NCBI RefSeq assembly: GCF_002564105.1
Contig: NZ_PDBX01000001.1
Span: 2,232,001-2,296,000 of the forward strand
Reading direction: 5' to 3'
DNA length: 64,000 nucleotides
Source: Collimonas sp. PA-H2
Lineage (GTDB): Bacteria > Pseudomonadota > Gammaproteobacteria > Burkholderiales > Burkholderiaceae_D
The translations under genes were made by a program, and so were the position numbers. The notes under the pieces were generated by a model, which saw only the letters and a program-made list of their open reading frames with translations, was not told the DNA's origin and did not search any database. The stretch's first letter is position 1. The number at the start of each line of letters is the position of its first letter. Positions 872 through 25,300 of this stretch are shown one piece after another.

Positions 872-1642
872 CTACATGCTCTTGATGCGTTCCACCATCT
901 CGGCGCCAAAGGCGATATACGCCTGGGCACCCTTGGAAGCGGCATCGAAACTCACGCCCGGCATGCCGTACGACGGCGCTTCCGCCAGCCGCACATTGCG
1001 CGGGATCACAGTCTTGAACACCTTGTCGCCAAAATGCTTTTCCAGTTCTTCCGACACTTGTTGCGATAAAGTCATGCGCGGATCGAACATGACGCGCAGC
1101 AAGCCGATGATCTTCAGGTCCGGATTCAGGTTGGCGTGCACCTTCTTGATGGTGTTGACCAGGTCCGACAGACCTTCCAGCGCGTAGTATTCGCATTGCA
1201 TCGGGATGATGACGCCGTTGGCGGCGCACAGGCCGTTCAGGGTCAACATCGACAAGGCCGGCGGACAATCGATCAGGATGAAGTCGTATTCCTCGGCAAC
1301 CGTGGCGAAAGCATCCTTCAGGCGCTTCTCGCGGTTCTCCAGTTCGACCATTTCCACTTCGGCGCCGGCCAGTTCGCGATTCGCCGGCAAGACATCAAAG
1401 CCGCCGGTTTCCGAAGTCTTGCGCACCGACTTGATATCCGACATGCCCAGCAATACTTCATAAATCGAGGCAGTCAATGTGCCCTTGTTGATTCCGGCGC
1501 CCATGGTGGCGTTGCCTTGCGGGTCGAGATCGGCCAGCAGTACGCGCTGATTCAGTTGCGCAAGGCCGGCGGCCAGGTTCACGGCGGTGGTGGTTTTACC
1601 GACTCCGCCCTTTTGATTGGCGACACAAAATATTTTTGCCAT
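872..1642 (-). CDS. parA: Chromosome partitioning ATPase ParA/Soj
   Basis: Deviant Walker-type ATPase that forms nucleoid-bound gradients and moves ParB-parS complexes. The 256-residue length is typical of chromosomal ParA/Soj, which lacks the N-terminal HTH of plasmid ParA. KGGVGKTT (residues about 11-18) is the deviant Walker A with its signature first lysine. DLDPQGNAT follows at about 39-47, and LIDCPPALSMLT is the Walker B region. The stop lies inside the iteron stretch leading to parB. lysE ends 17 bp before its start, so lysE-parA-parB may be co-transcribed. Confidence 0.97.
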   Translation of the reverse strand: MAKIFCVANQKGGVGKTTTAVNLAAGLAQLNQRVLLADLDPQGNATMGAGINKGTLTASIYEVLLGMSDIKSVRKTSETGGFDVLPANRELAGAEVEMVELENREKRLKDAFATVAEEYDFILIDCPPALSMLTLNGLCAANGVIIPMQCEYYALEGLSDLVNTIKKVHANLNPDLKIIGLLRVMFDPRMTLSQQVSEELEKHFGDKVFKTVIPRNVRLAEAPSYGMPGVSFDAASKGAQAYIAFGAEMVERIKSM

Positions 1643-2320: not shown

Positions 2321-2980
2321 TTACTTGCTACGTTTGATAAAGATCAGATGCCGTTCCGCATCCAGCCCCGGCACCGCCAGCGGCTTTATGTCCGTTACTT
2401 GCCAGCCGGCCGGCAGGCGGGCGATTTCCTCATCCGGCTTGACGCCCTTGAGCGCGATGAACTGGCCGTCATCTGTCAGCAAATGCGCCGACCAGTTGAT
2501 AAAATCGGCTAACTCAGCAAAAGCGCGCGAGGTGATCACATCGAATTTCTGCGCCACCTGCAGCTGCTCTACCCTGGCCGTATGGACGCTGACGTTGCTC
2601 AATCCCAATTCCGCTTTGACCTGGGTCAGGAATGCCGTTTTCTTGTGCACGGTGTCGATCATCGACACCCGCATCGCTGGCTTGGCTTTGCCGGCCCAGA
2701 TCGCCAGGATCATGCCCGGCAAACCACCGCCGGCGCCGACATCCAGCACATTCTCGGCCGCCGCAAAGGCCGGCACCACCGCCAGCGAATCCAGCAGATG
2801 ATGAGTCATCATCTGCGCCGGCTCGCGGATCGAGGTCAGGTTATAGACCTTGTTCCATTTCGCCAGCAAGTTCAGATAGGCCAGCAATTGCTGTTGCTGC
2901 TGCTGATCCAGCGCAATGCCTAATGTTTGTGCACCCTGCTGCAGGCTCGCTTCCAGCGACGCGGTCTGCGTTGAACTCAT
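2321..2980 (-). CDS. rsmG: 16S rRNA (guanine-527-N7)-methyltransferase RsmG (GidB)
   Basis: Methylates N7 of G527 in 16S rRNA using S-adenosylmethionine; loss gives low-level streptomycin resistance in other bacteria. The 219-residue length is typical. HHLLDSLAV precedes the SAM-binding segment VLDVGAGGGLPGMILAI (about residues 80-97), and 'VITSRAFAEL' is the conserved downstream motif. The N-terminus has a run of five glutamines (DQQQQQQ region, about residues 25-31). It lies 68 bp downstream of mnmG, the classic gidA-gidB order near origins. Confidence 0.96.
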   Translation of the reverse strand: MSSTQTASLEASLQQGAQTLGIALDQQQQQQLLAYLNLLAKWNKVYNLTSIREPAQMMTHHLLDSLAVVPAFAAAENVLDVGAGGGLPGMILAIWAGKAKPAMRVSMIDTVHKKTAFLTQVKAELGLSNVSVHTARVEQLQVAQKFDVITSRAFAELADFINWSAHLLTDDGQFIALKGVKPDEEIARLPAGWQVTDIKPLAVPGLDAERHLIFIKRSK

Positions 2981-3048: not shown

Positions 3049-4971
3049 TCAGGCTGCCTTGTCATCTGCATTCAGACGCTTCATGCCCTTTTTCAGATGC
3101 ACCAGCAGCAGCGACAAGGCAGCCGGCGTGACGCCGGAAATGCGTGAAGCCTGGCCGAAGGTTTCCGGCCGGTGCAGGTTGAGCTTCTGCCGCACTTCGA
3201 TCGACAGGGCTTGCACTTCCATATAGTCGAGGTCGGCCGGCAGCTTGAGGTTTTCGTTGTGCTCGTGGCGCTCGACTTCGCGCGCCTGGCGGTCGATATA
3301 GCCGGCGTACTTGACCTGGATTTCGACCTGTTCCCTGACGCTGTCGTCCTCTACGCCTGGACCGCCAAGATCCTGGCCGTCGACACCCTTCAGCGTCATT
3401 AATTGATCATAAGTAACATTTGGCCGGCGCAACAGGTCGGCCAACGCGTATTCGCGCTCCATGGCCTTGCCCAGCAGGCGCTCGGCTTCGGCGTCGGCGA
3501 CGAGGCGCGGATTCACCCACGTGGAACGCAGGCGCTCCATCTCGACGGCGACCGCTTCGCGCTTCTTCTCGAACTGCGCCCATTGGACGTCGCCGACACA
3601 GCCAAGCTGGCGGCCGATTTCGGTCAGGCGCAGGTCGGCGTTGTCTTCGCGCAGGCTCAGGCGGTACTCGGCGCGGCTGGTGAACATGCGATACGGCTCC
3701 TGCACGCCCTGGGTGATCAGGTCGTCGACCAGCACGCCCAGATAAGCTTCGTCGCGGCGCGGCGTCCAGGCATCGCGTTCCTGTGTCTGCAGGGCAGCGT
3801 TCAAGCCCGCCAACATGCCCTGCGCGGCGGCTTCTTCGTAACCGGTGGTGCCGTTGATCTGGCCGGCGAAGTACAAGCCTTGAATCTGTTTGGTTTCCAG
3901 CGAAGCCTTCAGACCGCGCGGATCGAAGTAGTCGTATTCGATGGCGTAGCCGGGACGCAGGATGTGCGCGTTCTCCAGGCCACGCATAGAGTGCACTAGC
4001 GCCAGCTGCACATCGAACGGCAAGCTTGTCGAAATACCATTAGGGTAAAACTCGTTGGTAGTCAGCCCTTCCGGCTCCAGGAAGATCTGGTGTGAATCCT
4101 TGCCAGCGAAACGATGGATCTTGTCTTCGATCGACGGGCAGTAACGCGGCCCTACCCCTTCGATAACGCCGGTGTACATCGGGCTGCGGTCCAGGCCGGC
4201 GCGGATGATATCGTGGGTTTGCTGGTTGGTATGGGTGATCCAGCATGGCAGTTGCTGCGGGTGCATGGCGGCATTGCCCATGACCGAAAATACCGGCACT
4301 GGATCAAGATCGCCCGGTTGCGGCTCCATCACGGAAAAATCGATGGTACGGCCGTCGATGCGCGGCGGTGTCCCGGTCTTCAGGCGCCCTTGCGGCAGCT
4401 TCAATTCCTTCAGGCGCGCCGACAGAGAAATCGCAGGCGGATCGCCGGCACGGCCGGCGGAATAGTTATTGAGGCCGACGTGGATCTTACCATCCAGGAA
4501 AGTACCGGCGGTCAGCACCACTGCCCGACTGCGGAACTGGATGCCGACCTGAGTCACGGCGCCGACTACGCGGTCGCCTTCCACCAACAGATCATCCACG
4601 GCCTGCTGGAATAGCCAGAGATTTTCCTGGTTTTCCAGGCGCGAGCGGATGGCTTGCTTGTACAGGATGCGGTCGGCTTGCGCCCGGGTCGCCCGTACTG
4701 CAGGACCTTTGGAAGAATTCAGGATACGGAACTGGATACCCGCTTCATCGGTGGCGATTGCCATCGCACCGCCCATGGCATCGACTTCTTTCACAAGATG
4801 ACCCTTGCCTATCCCACCAATCGACGGGTTGCACGACATCTGGCCCAGTGTTTCGATATTGTGTGTCAACAATAGCGTTTTTTGGCCCATGCGGGCGGAT
4901 GCCAGCGCGGCTTCGGTGCCGGCATGACCGCCGCCAACGACGATTACATCAAAATGTGTAGGAAAAAGCAT
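3049..4971 (-). CDS. mnmG: tRNA uridine-5-carboxymethylaminomethyl modification enzyme MnmG (GidA)
   Basis: FAD-dependent partner of MnmE that installs the cmnm5 group on U34 of certain tRNAs. The 640-residue length is normal. The N-terminus carries the FAD dinucleotide fold ([20 protein letters not shown]) followed by the family signature '[16 protein letters not shown]' at about 46-61. A second signature, '[12 protein letters not shown]', lies near residue 275. [18 protein letters not shown] is the second conserved block. The region upstream of its start carries two parS sites. mnmE is not in the window. Confidence 0.97.
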
Positions 4972-5067: not shown

Positions 5068-5083
5068 TGTTTCACGTGGAACA
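5068..5083. promoter_or_regulatory. parS site 1 (ParB-binding centromere)
   Basis: TGTTTCACGTGGAACA is the reverse complement of the canonical 16-bp parS TGTTCCACGTGAAACA. It lies about 100 bp upstream of mnmG and about 4.4 kb from parB. Exact identity over 16 bp and the nearby parAB genes make this a confident call. Confidence 0.93.
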
Positions 5084-5100
5084 TATGAATATTGCGCGGC

Positions 5101-5145
5101 AAAAACAAAAGCGGCGATTGTTTCACGTGGAACAATCGCCGCTTT
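5101..5145 (-). terminator. Rho-independent terminator containing a parS site
   Basis: AAAGCGGCGATTGTT and AACAATCGCCGCTTT form 15-bp arms around a TCACGTGG centre (5108-5145). On the minus strand the hairpin is followed by a T-rich run (TTTTGTTTTTG). It lies 17 bp past the stop of the TauE/SafE permease gene. The hairpin loop and upper stem are the parS site itself. Confidence 0.8.
5119..5134. promoter_or_regulatory. parS site 2 (ParB-binding centromere)
   Basis: A second exact TGTTTCACGTGGAACA, 51 bp from the first and in the same orientation. It forms the centre of a longer inverted repeat (5108-5145) that also looks like the terminator of the leftward permease gene. Confidence 0.93.
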
Positions 5146-14733: not shown

Positions 14734-15621
14734 ATGGACCTCATCCAACTTCGCGCCTTCGTCACGGTCGCCCGTGAAGGCAATCTGACGCGCGCAGCAG
14801 AATTGCTGCATGTCACCCAGCCGGCCGTCAGCCTGCAAATCAAATCGCTGCAGGTCAGCCTGAACCTGCAATTATTCAACCGCATCCCCAGCGGCATGGC
14901 GTTGACCGACGAAGGCGTCAAGTTACTGCCTTTTGCCGAACGCGCCATTGCCGTTATGTCGGAACTGCGCCAGCAAGCCGCCAGTTTGCATCCAAGCAAT
15001 TCCAAAATCCTCAGCGGAAAACTCGCGATCGGCACGATTCTCGATCCGGAGTTCATCCGTCTCGGCGCCTTTCTGCAGCGCCTGGTGGAAAGTTATCCAC
15101 AGCTTTCTACACAATTGCAGCACAGTATGTCAGGCGATGTTTTGCAGCAAATCAAGTCCGGCCATCTCGATGTCGGTTACTACCTCGGTACGCCAAACAA
15201 GAGTTTTCACCGGCTCACACTGACACAATTTACTTACTGCGTGCTTGCACCGTCAGGTTGGAAAAGCCGGGTTTCCGGAAAAGACTGGCCGGCTCTGGCG
15301 AAATTACCCTGGATCTGGACGCCGCCGGAATCGGCGCATCATCGTTTACTTAGCAAAACGTTTGCACAATATAAAGTTACGCCGAATAAAGTTGCTCTTG
15401 TCGACCAGGAACCGTCAATGCTGGACCTGGTGAAATCGGGCGTCGGACTTTCTCTTGTCAGAGAATCAATTGCATTGCGTGAAGCACATGCGCATGGCCT
15501 GGTGATTTCCGATACGGTCAATTTATCCACTGAACTATCGTTTATTACACTGGAAAAACGTAAAGACGAACCGGTGATTGCGGCCGTATTTGCCATATTG
15601 GAAACAATTTGGAGAAACTGA
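14734..15621 (+). CDS. LysR family transcriptional regulator (likely of mmsA-GMC)
   Basis: LysR-type regulator of 295 residues. The N-terminal winged HTH reads LIQLRAFVTVAREGNLTRAAELLHVTQPAVSLQIKSL (about 3-39). A periplasmic-binding-like effector domain of about 200 residues follows. It is divergent from mmsA, and control of the mmsA-GMC pair is inferred from that layout only. The coding sequence contains a perfect DnaA box (TTATCCACA at 15093-15101) and a one-mismatch box near 15524, adjoining the candidate origin to its right. A hairpin terminator follows the stop. Confidence 0.92.
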   Translation: MDLIQLRAFVTVAREGNLTRAAELLHVTQPAVSLQIKSLQVSLNLQLFNRIPSGMALTDEGVKLLPFAERAIAVMSELRQQAASLHPSNSKILSGKLAIGTILDPEFIRLGAFLQRLVESYPQLSTQLQHSMSGDVLQQIKSGHLDVGYYLGTPNKSFHRLTLTQFTYCVLAPSGWKSRVSGKDWPALAKLPWIWTPPESAHHRLLSKTFAQYKVTPNKVALVDQEPSMLDLVKSGVGLSLVRESIALREAHAHGLVISDTVNLSTELSFITLEKRKDEPVIAAVFAILETIWRN

Positions 15622-15640: not shown

Positions 15641-15664
15641 AAAGGGGTCAAATCCCCTTTTTTT
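15641..15664 (+). terminator. Terminator of the LysR gene
   Basis: AAAGGGG-TCAAAT-CCCCTTT followed by a run of T residues, 20 bp after the stop codon. It insulates the origin-like region to the right from this transcript. Confidence 0.8.
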
Positions 15665-15690
15665 GGATTTCACAGCTCTTCGTGTTTACA

Positions 15691-15910
15691 TTTATAGGTT
15701 TATATATATGAATAGTAATAGTAGTTAACGCCCTGCTTTTCTGTGGATAACTATGAATTTGATTATTCATTCAAGTACTTACGACTTGGATAAGCGCTGA
15801 GTAAACCTTGTATCTGGAAAGAACATTTCTTGGATAAAAATGGGCTTGTGGATAGTTGCTTCGTTTATGCACATTAGATTCCTGTAGTTATCCACGGACT
15901 TATCCACAGT
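15691..15910 (+). repeat. Origin module, copy 1
   Basis: In order: TTTATATATA run, TAG/TAA triplets, GTTAAC, a GCCCTGC segment, box TGTGGATAA at 15742, CTTGGATAA, TTGGATAAAA, box TGTGGATAG at 15847, then two reverse boxes 12 bp apart at 15888 and 15900. The same elements recur in copy 2 with offsets of 389-391 bp. Confidence 0.8.
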
Positions 15911-16080
15911 TATAAATTTTCATTCTTTCTATTTCTACCTTCCGTGCAGATTTTTCCCTCTCTTTTTTATTAAAAGGAGACCTTGAAAAAAGAATTTTTT
16001 TAGAAAAGTTGCTTTCTTAGCTTTATTTTGCGAATTCATTTTTTAAAGGCAACTTCAAAAGAAAAGGCTTTTCGGTTTTG

Positions 16081-16300
16081 TATTTAAAGATTTATATATA
16101 AAATAGTAGTAGTAGTTAACACCCTGCTTTTCTGTGGATAACTGCAAATTTGACTATTCATTCAAGCACTTGCGGCTTGGATAAAGGCTTGGTAATCGGT
16201 GTATTGCGGCAGAATAATTCTTGGATAAAAAAACGCTGTGGAAAACTAACTCGGATATCCACAATTGAAAAACAGGATATCCACAGCCTTATCCACAAAA
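16081..16300 (+). repeat. Origin module, copy 2
   Basis: Same order of parts as copy 1: TTTATATATA, four TAG triplets, GTTAAC, an ACCCTGC segment, box at 16133, CTTGGATAA, TTGGATAAAA, box-like TGTGGAAAA at 16237, then reverse boxes 12 bp apart at 16277 and 16289. An extra ATATCCACA lies at 16255. The 170-bp spacer between the copies (15911-16080) is a T- and A-rich low-complexity stretch. Confidence 0.8.
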
Positions 16301-16463
16301 TCAAGAAAACACAGTGATTCCGATGCTTTTTAAGCAATGCAAAGCCATTTTGCCAAAAAAAATCGGCCTGCTTAAACGGTAGGCAGCATCGCTTTCAGAA
16401 AAAATTCTAGACAAGCTGAATCGAAAGCTTTAATGTACGCAAAGCGTATATTTGGAGGAGCGA

Positions 16464-17765
16464 ATGCTCGATCAGCAGACTTTTTTGCGCGACGCCATGC
16501 GCCGCCTTAACCTTACCCGGGAAAATTTTTCGGAGCGGATCGGTATCCGAAAGCGTGCGTTGGACACCTGGTTATTGCCGGAAACATCCGGTGAATACAG
16601 GGTGATGCCGGATATCGTGACGAAATTTGTCAGTGAAATCCTGGGCGGAAACATTGCCGCCCAAGGATCTACGCAGAGCGTATATACCCCCGACCCCAAT
16701 GCCCCGCTACGCACACGCATCGGCTACAACGGCAAGCCGCAGCTGCTATCGGTGGACCAGTTTTCGCGCGATTCGCTGGAAGAGCTGTTCCGCATCGCCG
16801 ACATCATGCAGCCCATTGCAAGGCGCCAGAAGGTCTCGCGCATCCTCGAGGGTGCCGTACTAGCCAATTTGTTCTTTGAGGCCAGTACGCGCACGCGTAT
16901 CAGCTTTGGCGCGGCGTTTTGCCGCCTGGGAGGATCGGTTTGCGACACCACCGGGTTTACCTTCTCTTCCATGACCAAGGGCGAGTCGATCTACGACACC
17001 AGCCGCGTCATCAGCGGCTATGTCGATGCCCTGGTAGTGCGGCACCCGGAACAAGGCGCAGTCGACGAATTCGCCCGCGCCACCAATATTCCGGTGATCA
17101 ACGGCGGCGACGGCCCGGGCGAGCATCCCAGCCAGGCGATTCTCGACCTGTACACCATCCAGCGTGAATTCTCGCGGCTGGGGAAATTGGTCGATGGCGC
17201 CCATATCGTCATGGCGGGCGATCTCAAGTACGGCCGCACGGTGCATTCGCTGATCAAGCTGCTGGCCCTGTACCGCAATCTCAGGTTCACCCTGATCGCG
17301 CCGCCGACCCTGGAGATGCCGGCCCACATCCTGGAGCGCATTGCCCGCGCCGGCCATGCGGTGGAGCAATCGACTTCGCTGCGGCAAGGTTTGCGAGGCG
17401 CGGACATCGTGTACGCCACCCGGATCCAGAAAGAACGCTTCGCCGACGAGGCGATCGAGGGCTATACGCCGGATTTCCAGATCAACCAGGCCCTGATCAA
17501 CGCCGCCTGCAGCGCCGACACCATCGTCATGCACCCCTTGCCGCGCGACGGCCGGCCCGGCGCCAACGATCTCAGCACCGATCTGAATCATGATCCGCGC
17601 CTGGCGATATTCCGCCAGACCGACAATGGCATTCCGGTCAGGATGGCGCTCTTCGCAACTTTGCTGGGAGTGGAGAACCAGGTGCAGCATTCGATGCGCG
17701 ATGTCAGCTGGCGCTCGCCCCACCATGTGGGACCAGATGACGCAGCTTTCGACGGCCTGGACTGA
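16464..17765 (+). CDS. pyrB: Aspartate carbamoyltransferase with N-terminal HTH-like extension
   Basis: Condenses carbamoyl phosphate and aspartate in pyrimidine synthesis. The carbamoyl-phosphate motif FFEASTRTRISFG lies at about residues 136-148, GDGPGEHPSQAILDLYT in the middle, and HPLPRDGRPG at about 355. The 433-residue length is about 120 more than E. coli PyrB, partly because residues 1-75 form an extra domain (MLDQQTFLRDAMRRLNLTRE...) that resembles a phage-repressor-like HTH. The ATG at 16464 is chosen because GGAGGAG precedes it by 4 bp; a TTG at 16452 lies inside that ribosome site. It is the first gene right of the candidate origin. No pyrI-like gene is nearby. Confidence 0.92.
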   Translation: MLDQQTFLRDAMRRLNLTRENFSERIGIRKRALDTWLLPETSGEYRVMPDIVTKFVSEILGGNIAAQGSTQSVYTPDPNAPLRTRIGYNGKPQLLSVDQFSRDSLEELFRIADIMQPIARRQKVSRILEGAVLANLFFEASTRTRISFGAAFCRLGGSVCDTTGFTFSSMTKGESIYDTSRVISGYVDALVVRHPEQGAVDEFARATNIPVINGGDGPGEHPSQAILDLYTIQREFSRLGKLVDGAHIVMAGDLKYGRTVHSLIKLLALYRNLRFTLIAPPTLEMPAHILERIARAGHAVEQSTSLRQGLRGADIVYATRIQKERFADEAIEGYTPDFQINQALINAACSADTIVMHPLPRDGRPGANDLSTDLNHDPRLAIFRQTDNGIPVRMALFATLLGVENQVQHSMRDVSWRSPHHVGPDDAAFDGLD

Positions 17766-22379: not shown

Positions 22380-25300
22380 TCAAGCCTGCAAGGTCATCAG
22401 GCTGGCATTGCCCCCCGCGGCAGTGGTATTGACGCACACCGCGCGCTCAGCCAGCAGGCGCCACAGCGGAATCGAGGCATATTCGGAGGTTTCCAGCAGC
22501 GGCACCAGCGCGCCGGATTTCTCGCTCAACGCAGTCAGCAAGGGACGCAGGCGCGAGGAGCCGGCGCCATCTACCAGCGCCAGCTGCAGGCGCGCGCTAT
22601 TGCTGTCGGCATCGAGCTTGTCGATCACCCGGATGGCTGCGTGCACCGCCTTTGGCAAGCCTTCCGGAATCATTGCTGCCGCGCCCGCTTCCACCACCGG
22701 GGAGTTGCCGGTGGCGAATACCGCCGCCAGCTGGTTCAGCATGGCGCCGACATTATCCGCGCTGCACAGGATGGCGCCGCGCGGTGCAAACGACAAGCTG
22801 TTGCGTTCGCCGGTCGGCCCCGGCAGCACCAGCGAGGTGCCGAGCCAGCTGGCGTGCATGTATTCCTCGCCCAGCGCGGCAATCCGTTGATGGCCGTGGG
22901 TTTTGGCCCAGCCCAGCAGCGCTTGCAGCACCGGCGTATCGATCGCCGCGTCGGCATTCGGCGCATGAATCGTATGCGCACCCAGCGACACCACGGGATT
23001 GCGTTGCAGCCGCTTCAGGTACAAGGGGCCGCCGGCTTTTGGTCCGGTGCCTGATTTCCCTTCGCCGCCAAACGGCTGCACGCCGACCACGGCGCCGACG
23101 ATATTGCGGTTCACATAGATATTGCCGACATGCGCATGGCCGACGATGTAGTCGATGGTTTCGTCGATGCGCGAATGGATCCCCAGCGTCAGGCCGTAGC
23201 CGCTGCCGTTGATCGCTTCGATCAGTTGCGGCAGCTCATTGCGGGCGTAGCGCAGCACGTGCAATACCGGTCCGAACACTTCGCGTTTCAGTTCCGACAT
23301 GGAGCCGATTTCGATCAGGGTCGGCGCCACGAAAGTACCGTTGCTTTGTTCCGGCGGCAGCGGCAACTGGAACAAGTCCTTGGCTGTGCCGCGCATTCTT
23401 TCTATATGCGCCAGCAACTGACCCTGGGCATCGGCATCGATCACCGGGCCGATGTCGGTCACCAGCCGGTCCGGACTGCCGACCCGCAACTCCTGCATGG
23501 CGCCCTTCAGCATATGCAAGGTGCGGTCGGCGATATCGTTTTGCAGGCACAGCACGCGCAAAGCCGAGCAGCGCTGGCCAGCGCTGTCGAATGCCGAGTT
23601 CAGCACGTCTTGCACCACCTGCTCCGGCAGGGCGCTGGAGTCCATGATCAAGGCGTTCTGGCCACCGGTTTCGGCGATTAGCGGCAGATCGACCGATTCT
23701 TCCAGCGAGCGTTTCGCCAGCGTGCGGTTGATGATCTGCGCGACCTCGGTCGAACCGGTGAAAATCACGCCCTTGACACGCGGGTCGGCGGTCAGCGTGG
23801 CGCCGACGGTATCGCCCTGCCCCGGCAGGAATTGCAAGGCCGCGTGCGGCACGCCGGCTTCATGCATCAATTGCACTGCGCGCGCGGCGATCAGCGGCGT
23901 CTGTTCCGCTGGCTTGGCCAGCACCACATTGCCGGCTGCCAGCGCGGCGCTGACTTCGCCGACAAAAATCGCCAGCGGGAAATTCCACGGGCTGATGCAC
24001 ACCACCGGGCCGAGCGCCAGCGCGTTCTGGGTGTGGCGGATTTGCGCCGCGTAGTAGCGCAGGAAATCGACTGCTTCGCGCACTTCTGCAATGGCGTTCG
24101 GCAGCGATTTGCCGGCCTCGCGGATTGCCAGCGCGATCAATTCCATCTGGTTTTCTTCAAACAGTGCGGCTGAGCGGTCCAGTTTGTCGGCGCGTTCCGC
24201 CGGCGGCAGGGTTTGCCAATCCATGGCGTAGACGCTGGCTGCATGCAGGGCTTTGTCGACATCGGCGACGCTGGCTTCGATCACGCTGCCGACCACATCG
24301 CGATGGTCGGCCGGATTCAGCACCGGACGCGCGGCCTGGCTATAGGCTTGCAGCTCGCCCAGCAGCGGCGTCGCATGCCATTGCTGCTGGCCGAAAATCT
24401 TGAAGGCGCTGTCGATCTGGCGCAGCACTTCTTCATTGCTAAGATCGAGGCCGGTCGAATTCTTGCGTTCGGCGCCGAACATGGCCGGCGGCAGGGCAAT
24501 CTGCGGATGCGGCTCGCCGCCCAGCTGCTGGGCGGCCTGCAGCGGATCGGCAATGAGCGAATCGATGGAGACGTTCTCATCGACGATCTGGTTGACGAAG
24601 GACGAGTTGGCGCCGTTTTCCAGCAAGCGCCGCACCAGGTAAGCCAGCAAGGTCTGGTGCGAACCGACCGGTGCGTAGATGCGGCAAGGCTTGTCCAGCA
24701 TGTCTTTGCCGACCACCTGGTCGTACAGCGTTTCGCCCATGCCGTGCAGGCACTGGAATTCGTAATCGGTGACGTTCTTTTCCTTCGCCCAGCTATAAAT
24801 AGTGGCCAGGGTATGCGCGTTATGCGTGGCAAACTGCGGATAGATGACGTCGGTCGCCGCCAGCAGTTTTTGGGCGCAGGTCAGGTAGGACACATCCGTA
24901 TAAACCTTGCGGGTGTACACCGGGAAGCCCGGCAAGCCGTCGACCTGGGCGCGCTTGATTTCGGAGTCCCAGTAGGCGCCCTTGACCAGCCGCACCATGA
25001 ATTTGCGGCCGCTGCGGCGCGCCAGGTCGGCCAGGTAGTCGATCACGAAGGGACAGCGCTTCTGATAGCCCTGCACCACGAAACCGATGCCGTCGAAGCC
25101 GGCCAGGTCAGGATCGAAGGCGAGCGCTTCCATCAGGTCCAGCGACAGTTCCAGGCGATCCGCTTCTTCCGCATCGATGTTGAGGCCGATGTTGTATTGC
25201 TTGGCCAGCACCAGCAACTGCTTCAGGCGCGGCAGCAGTTCCTGCATGGTGCGCTGGCGCTGGGCGCGCGAATAGCGCGGATGCAGCGCCGACAATTTCA

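Follow-up and report, generated by a model that had tools for sequence, protein, structure and literature searches.

The replication origin of the Collimonas chromosome is probably made up of two complete tandem units of E. coli layout, with R1 boxes 391 bp apart, which would be autonomous and would make initiation redundant or mutually helped. As far as the sequence goes, this doubled origin is real, conserved and multi-unit, and it has the layout of E. coli oriC. The window, the whole stretch of 64,000 nucleotides that was analysed, corresponds to positions 2,232,001–2,296,000 of contig C1 (5,566,618 bases) in the 5.95-Mb genome of a member of Collimonas, a genus of soil bacteria.

Two complete units in one intergenic region

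The doubled unit is located in an 840-base gap between the gene of a LysR-family regulator (14734–15621, plus strand), which adjoins units in several other genera too, and that of an aspartate carbamoyltransferase of the PRK11891 type (16464–17765, plus strand), so that these two genes form the flanks of the origin. Two copies of one unit of about 220 bp, both on the plus strand, lie at 15675–15908 and 16067–16297, and no open reading frame of at least 80 amino acids was found between them. The stretch from 15660 to 16310 has a GC content of 33% and contains no GATC, and the 620-base stretch carrying both units occurs a single time in the genome. A direct repeat (15711–15840 and 16102–16231) shows 82% identity over 130 nt.

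Unit 1 has an AT-rich run TTTATATATAT (15699–15709), followed on the same strand by TAG/TAA triplets TAGTAATAGTAG (15713–15724), which read 3'-GAT-5' and resemble the DnaA-trio, by GTTAAC (15724–15729), by an R1-type DnaA box TGTGGATAA with 0 mismatches (15742–15750), by an IHF-like site at +27 (15769–15781, one mismatch to WATCAANNNNTTR), and by weak boxes in the same direction (15785–15855), namely CTTGGATAA at 15785 and 15829 and TGTGGATAG at 15847. Inverted boxes on the minus strand start at 15865, 15888 and 15900 (15865–15908), and the last one, at +158, is perfect and R4-like. Unit 2 likewise consists of an AT-rich run TTTATATATA (16091–16100), TAG triplets TAGTAGTAGTAG (16104–16115), GTTAAC (16115–16120), an R1-type box TGTGGATAA with 0 mismatches (16133–16141), an IHF-like site at +27 with one mismatch to WATCAANNNNTTR (16160–16172), weak same-direction boxes (16176–16245; CTTGGATAA at 16176 and 16220, TGTGGAAAA at 16237), all on the plus strand, and inverted minus-strand boxes at 16255, 16277 and 16289 (16255–16297), the last being perfect and R4-like at +156. 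Measured from R1, the IHF-like site thus stands at +27 in each unit, the weak boxes of the same direction at +43, +87 and +104/105, and the inverted boxes at +122/123, +144/146 and +156/158. In both units the last TAG is 17 bp from the R1 box, and the offset from unit 1 to unit 2 is 391 for the R1 box and both CTTGGATAA boxes and then 390, 390, 389 and 389.

An earlier note on this DNA had described the same named elements in the same order twice, with offsets of 391, 390, 389 and 389 bp and 17 bp between last triplet and box; when positions were rechecked in the window, all elements were in place and these distances held in both copies. Its view of the unit as a DnaA box plus trios stands in that both are present, but it is incomplete, as the layout is that of E. 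coli oriC with an IHF-like site. Beyond that first reading, each copy also has the IHF-like site at +27 and a third inverted box at +122/123. IHF-like sites are here predicted sites, that is, consensus matches mostly with one mismatch; the gene for IHF alpha is present in the genome and scores above the curated cut-off.

When 30-bp segments of the window were ranked by duplex stability, with picks more than 150 bp apart, the segment with the AT run of unit 2 (16081) was the second and that of unit 1 (15690) the fifth least stable; with 60-bp segments the two AT runs ranked fourth and fifth. Of 16 DnaA-box-like sites (0–1 mismatch) in the 64-kb window, 10 fall in 15742–16297, and a profile of the 72-nt core has exactly two matches in the 5.95-Mb genome, which are the two units (E = 1.8e-17 and 7.5e-17). 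Because of this clustering and these just two genome-wide matches, the doubled unit is not taken for a product of chance. A probe combining R1 with an IHF-like site at +27 likewise found only the two units genome-wide when at most one mismatch was allowed and two further places at two mismatches, and the reversed-pattern control gave 0 matches.

The doubled unit looks like the chromosomal origin

Cumulative GC skew, calculated from a 400-kb walk around the window and 20 samples of 20 kb taken at even intervals, together covering about 14% of the contig, is lowest at window position 24006; the first R1 box is 8.3 kb and dnaA 49 kb away from this minimum. All nine 20-kb samples up to and including the origin were negative; after the origin, eight of 11 were positive and three negative, one of these three being situated past the point that is opposite the origin. 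Two parS-like sites (TGTTTCACGTGGAACA; 5068–5083 and 5119–5134), detected in a pattern search of the genome, are the only ones with one mismatch; a third one elsewhere has two mismatches, and the reversed-pattern control gave one match. These sites, mnmG (gidA; 3049–4971, minus strand), which is often found near origins, rsmG (gidB; 2321–2980, minus strand) and a gene for a parA-like partition ATPase (872–1642, minus strand; Pfam AAA_31, passing no NCBIfam cut-off) are situated 10–15 kb from the doubled unit.

The dnaA gene is located at window-equivalent position 72768, 57 kb from the doubled unit; two DnaA boxes lie within 300 bp upstream of it and one shortly downstream. No TAG-triplet run precedes the boxes there, and the flanks of dnaA do not carry the unit; the idea of a relict unit at dnaA was rejected on this ground. 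Because the skew minimum, the parS-like sites and the mnmG, rsmG and parA-like genes are nearby and the flanks of dnaA have no triplet runs, the locus is taken as the chromosomal origin; it looks like the oriC of Collimonas, placed, by its predicted elements, away from dnaA. The earlier note had called the region origin-like and had named the skew minimum as a check, and both points are borne out: within the walk and the samples, the minimum falls near the units and not at dnaA, and the parS-like sites and neighbouring genes agree with it.

Both copies are old and constrained in Collimonas

Both copies were found in 13 of the 15 Collimonas genomes searched; the two genomes without a match are one of 1.7 Mb and one 86%-complete draft in about 420 contigs. 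The distance from R1 to R1 ranges from 371 to 393 in the genomes with both copies. The flanking LysR gene shows 89–98% identity in six Collimonas records (C. humicola, C. silvisoli, C. antrihumi and three more strains) and 66% in the best segment of a seventh.

Identity among genomes was 0.856 for copy 1 and 0.875 for copy 2, whereas copy 1 and copy 2 were identical to only 0.732 within a genome and 0.728 across genomes. By these values the duplication predates the sampled species and homogenisation of the copies is not taking place; concerted evolution was not seen in Collimonas. In the tree, all 13 first copies fall into a single clade, separate from the second copies, with a support of 1.000. 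Out of 254 alignment columns, copy 1 has 165 and copy 2 has 170 that are invariant. The AT run, the triplets, TTAAC, R1, the second weak box and the last inverted box are near-invariant in both copies, with 10 of 12 triplet columns and all five columns of TTAAC invariant in each; TTAAC, the last five bases of GTTAAC, is unchanged in 26 of 26 Collimonas copies. The R1 box is changed in copy 2 of G008 (TGTGGGTAA) and in copy 1 of G009 (TGTGGACAA), and four genomes (G003, G008, G011 and G012) have lost the +105 weak box from copy 1, a copy-specific change.

The earlier note had considered a recent duplication, one silent copy and two unwinding sites. The first is rejected, as the copies form separate clades, are kept in 13 of 15 genomes and predate the sampled Collimonas species, and the second is unlikely, as both copies are equally constrained. 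This leaves the third, two unwinding sites, as the putative arrangement.

Two or three units are common in the family

A sequence-only profile of the 72-base core, made from 27 copies including both units of the window, was used to search 392 genomes from 44 genera (E ≤ 0.01) of a family which, by its named members, is Oxalobacteraceae; the family guess of the earlier note fits these named relatives. Matches were obtained in 350 genomes (one in 41, two in 202, three in 104 and four in 3) and none in 42. Two to four matches are thus present in 309 of 392 genomes, and 25 of the 44 genera include a genome with at least two. Together with the genus data this answers the question, posed in the earlier note, whether relatives keep both copies; it also refines that note, as the doubling is common in the family rather than peculiar to one genome.

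Among the 350, each of the 54 genomes in a single contig has two or three matches, and at least one single-contig genome (G109, 2.5 Mb) has no match. Among the 20 no-match genomes listed, of 42, ten have 1.7–2.6 Mb and ten 3.4–4.9 Mb, some of them being nearly complete. The number of matches follows the genus: it is mostly two in g1, g12, g47, g48, g51, g56 and g64, mostly three in g6 and g19, and one in g5. As all 17 matched genomes of g5 have one match, one unit can suffice. Genomes of 1–3 Mb mostly have one or no match (g5, g7, g9, g11), genera with 5–7 Mb often have three (g6, g19), and some genomes of 3.7–4.9 Mb (g9, g11) have none; a link between unit number and genome size is only a lead.

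The proximity of the matches of one genome was checked in 76 family loci from 75 genomes chosen by us. Two or three units within the stretch are carried by 70 of these loci, arranged as 46 tandem pairs, 15 tandem triples and nine head-to-head pairs with their unwinding runs facing (g3, g18, g47, g63); the other six show one unit, and three of them (G231, G401, G134) belong to genomes with two matches, which in G231 are on two contigs. Distances from unit to unit are 315–1112 bp in the 76 loci, and no helical phasing was found between units (p about 0.8–0.97; one distance per genus, 14 genera). In g47 (L108, L157, L159), head-to-head cores are identical within a genome and tandem units diverge, a pattern for which gene conversion between inverted copies and selection against identical tandem copies are offered as alternatives.

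The internal ruler was read in 74 units from 36 loci and 21 genera, also chosen by us. An IHF-like site is present at exactly +27 in 65 of the 74 units, and it was not selected for, since it lies outside the profile; the nine units without it belong to g10, g12, g15, g19 and g54. An inverted box occurs at +155 to +161 in 72 of 74 units, and at the control offset of +115 to +121 in 0. Further inverted boxes gather at +122/123 and at +144 to +146. GTTAAC or GTAAAC stands straight after the triplets in 70 of the 74 units (46 of GTTAAC type and at most 24 of GTAAAC type, the rest being other); the two types often occur together in one origin. In a tree of the 74 units, given without support values, copies pair across genera in some cases (g6 with g64, g4 with g12) and group within the genus in others (g1, g51, g47).

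Outside Collimonas, 14 named or MAG loci had a LysR gene with at least 65% identity: seven with two units, two with one and five with none, two of these five being incomplete loci. Two units stand beside the LysR gene in Noviherbaspirillum massiliense, N. denitrificans, N. suwonense, Herbaspirillum sp. ST 5-3, Oxalobacteraceae bacterium OM1, a Herminiimonas MAG and one more MAG; the five loci with no units beside it include N. pedocola and Undibacterium squillarum. No units were seen in the Caballeronia loci that carry the LysR gene.

Units in other families

The R1+IHF probe was applied to an order sample of 399 genomes and a class sample of 274 genomes. With the IHF-like site at +27 this probe is specific but not sensitive, as it found one of three profile matches in G032 and none in G133. 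Two sites on one contig were detected in all five genomes of f27/g70, 246 bp apart in four and 337 bp in one; the pairs at L263 and L264 have poorer triplets. One f41 genome has two sites 301 bp apart. Reading of loci revealed a pair 244 bp apart in f51 (G591) and, in f49 (G590, G757, G482), unit pairs with triplets, those of G590 without the +27 site; the f49 units are 54 kb (G757) and 16 kb (G482) from dnaA. In the class sample, only G000 has two R1+IHF matches within 2 kb and no other such pair was seen; this absence is weak evidence, since only 46 of 274 genomes have any match.

G507, from f31, another family of the order, carries an inverted pair of units at a distance of about 3 kb (L269:1335, L269:4371), both with GTTAAC and a +27 site, and this pair may bear on the undecided position of the Burkholderia chromosome 1 origin. 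The genomes of f31/g74, of near 2 Mb (L177, L130–L133), have only one unit, which follows shortly after dnaA on the opposite strand, the position of dnaA having been checked for G421 and G724. From these arrangements, one unit beside dnaA may be the ancestral condition, and units may have been doubled repeatedly.

How the units might work

By analogy with E. coli and B. subtilis, DnaA-ATP would load at R1 and spread over the boxes of the left half, IHF would bend the DNA back, and DnaA would engage the TAG strand as a filament, upon which the AT run would open and the helicase would be loaded. Either unit could open, and the fork would pass the other unit within about 1 second at usual fork speeds. 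With two or three units within about 1 kb, redundant or mutually helping initiation would be the likeliest consequence, giving a higher chance, or a sharper timing, of initiation. Because the ruler inside the unit is kept in 21 genera, whereas units differ in number, orientation and spacing, each unit is regarded as a putative autonomous orisome. We conclude that these are predicted autonomous origin units kept in multiple copies, and both units in Collimonas likely fire.

The main rival, which we consider unlikely and which is partly compatible with the best explanation, is that one unit unwinds and the other tunes timing as a platform for DnaA binding, titration or help, like oriC1 of B. subtilis and H. 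pylori. In both species the bipartite origin carries the DUE in one part (PMC4285127, PMC8235120), and the copy-specific changes, such as the loss of the +105 weak box of copy 1 in four genomes, would suit such a division of labour. However, a helper would not need an AT run, triplets and GTTAAC of its own, yet these are equally constrained in copies 1 and 2, and in duplex stability both AT runs fall within the lowest five of the window's 30-bp segments. Still less probable is that two units cooperate as one bigger origin and supply one helicase each, one per fork. The head-to-head pairs with facing runs, in nine of 76 loci, are what this model would lead one to expect, but in the 46 tandem pairs the TAG strands are the same, 15 loci are tandem triples, the spacing is variable and unphased, and genomes with one match exist.

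That copy 2 arose by recent or neutral duplication, or is a silent relic, is very improbable: a duplication does exist and the head-to-head cores of g47 are identical within a genome, but the Collimonas copies contradict this reading by predating the sampled species and by being both constrained, and some copies pair between genera in the tree without shown support. It is just as hard to believe that the locus is not an origin but a datA/DARS-like DnaA-binding cluster near a true origin at dnaA, for although dnaA is 57 kb away with boxes on both sides, those boxes lack a preceding TAG-triplet run, the skew minimum, parS-like sites and mnmG accompany the doubled unit, and its AT run, R1 and IHF layout matches E. 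coli oriC.

Returning to autonomous units, chances seem evenly balanced that in Oxalobacteraceae and several other Burkholderiales families the main chromosome is run from two or three side-by-side origins of E. coli layout, each able to unwind and to load helicase, so that initiation would be controlled at the level of a cluster of orisomes, which compete or help, rather than of one oriC. A family mostly with two to three full units is a natural experiment on once-per-cycle initiation with several orisomes within about 1 kb, and the comparison isolates what an origin unit needs, a fixed ruler from R1 over IHF to R4. It may also bear on the Burkholderia chromosome 1 origin, which has been left open.

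Comparison with known origins

The textbook bacterial origin is one oriC with one unwinding element. Among the open-access titles and abstract openings that were listed, none described doubled complete origin units. According to its methods as described there, the DnaA-trio survey of Pelliciari (2021) sought triplets 0–16 bp from the box in its first search and filtered to one best candidate in more than 99% of genomes (PMC8287927); because of this single-candidate filter and the 0–16 bp limit, the survey could hardly report doubled units. The basal unwinding system (BUS) as defined in that paper and the Collimonas units share a DnaA box, a spacer and at least three NAN triplets of TAG type; the box, for which up to two mismatches are allowed, has none in Collimonas. 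The BUS spacer is 0–16 bp, whereas that of Collimonas is 17 bp, one over the limit, and a longer distance is allowed there only with a second upstream box (PMC8287927); moreover, two to three copies per origin occur in the family. Since the 17-bp spacer exceeds this range, the units are not classed as BUS and are only said to work in a similar way.

Divided origins are described as two box clusters, one harbouring the DUE (PMC4285127), and the bipartite origin of H. pylori likewise has its DUE in one part (PMC8235120); in B. subtilis, a 2026 review has the strands separated at a single site (PMC13220808). Two DnaA-binding parts are common to these origins and that of Collimonas. In B. subtilis and H. 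pylori, as these sources present them, the parts are unlike, split by dnaA and endowed with one DUE, whereas in Collimonas the full layout occurs twice with no gene between, and both units have a run and triplets.

The two origins of a two-oriC strain of V. cholerae are reportedly not a tandem pair of one unit. According to the Ori-Finder 2022 paper, multiple oriCs per chromosome have been predicted, and this strain has a single chromosome with two functional oriCs (PMC10225481); it shares with Collimonas a natural chromosome with two origins, which are working ones in V. cholerae and are read from sequence in Collimonas. Putative double origins were listed by Gao (2015), with DoriC displaying only the most probable one, and the same article reports two autonomously replicating origins in P. 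aeruginosa (PMC4403523). There, too, two natural origin-like elements reside on one chromosome, but just one of them is essential under laboratory growth (PMC4403523). For chromosome 1 of B. cenocepacia, the exact origin was left open and a second DnaA-box cluster was noted (PMC4948915), so that dispersed features and a second cluster are what it has in common with Collimonas.

The closest layout is that of E. coli K-12 oriC (NC_000913.3), which shares with each Collimonas unit an unwinding region, an R1 box TGTGGATAA, IHF at exactly +27, weaker boxes between and an inverted R4 box at the far end. The IHF site of E. coli has two mismatches to the consensus used and those of the window one each. 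E. coli has one unit with R4 at +180, whereas Collimonas has two with R4-like boxes at +156/158; E. coli oriC has GATC sites, whereas Collimonas has none in 15660–16310 and has TAG triplets. To our knowledge, GATC-based control by SeqA and Dam is limited to relatives of E. coli. Both units thus have an R1 box beside an easily melted element, an IHF-like site at +27 and an inverted R4-like box but no GATC sites, and because GATC is absent from this stretch and R4 is nearer, we speak of an E. coli layout and not of membership in the E. coli type.
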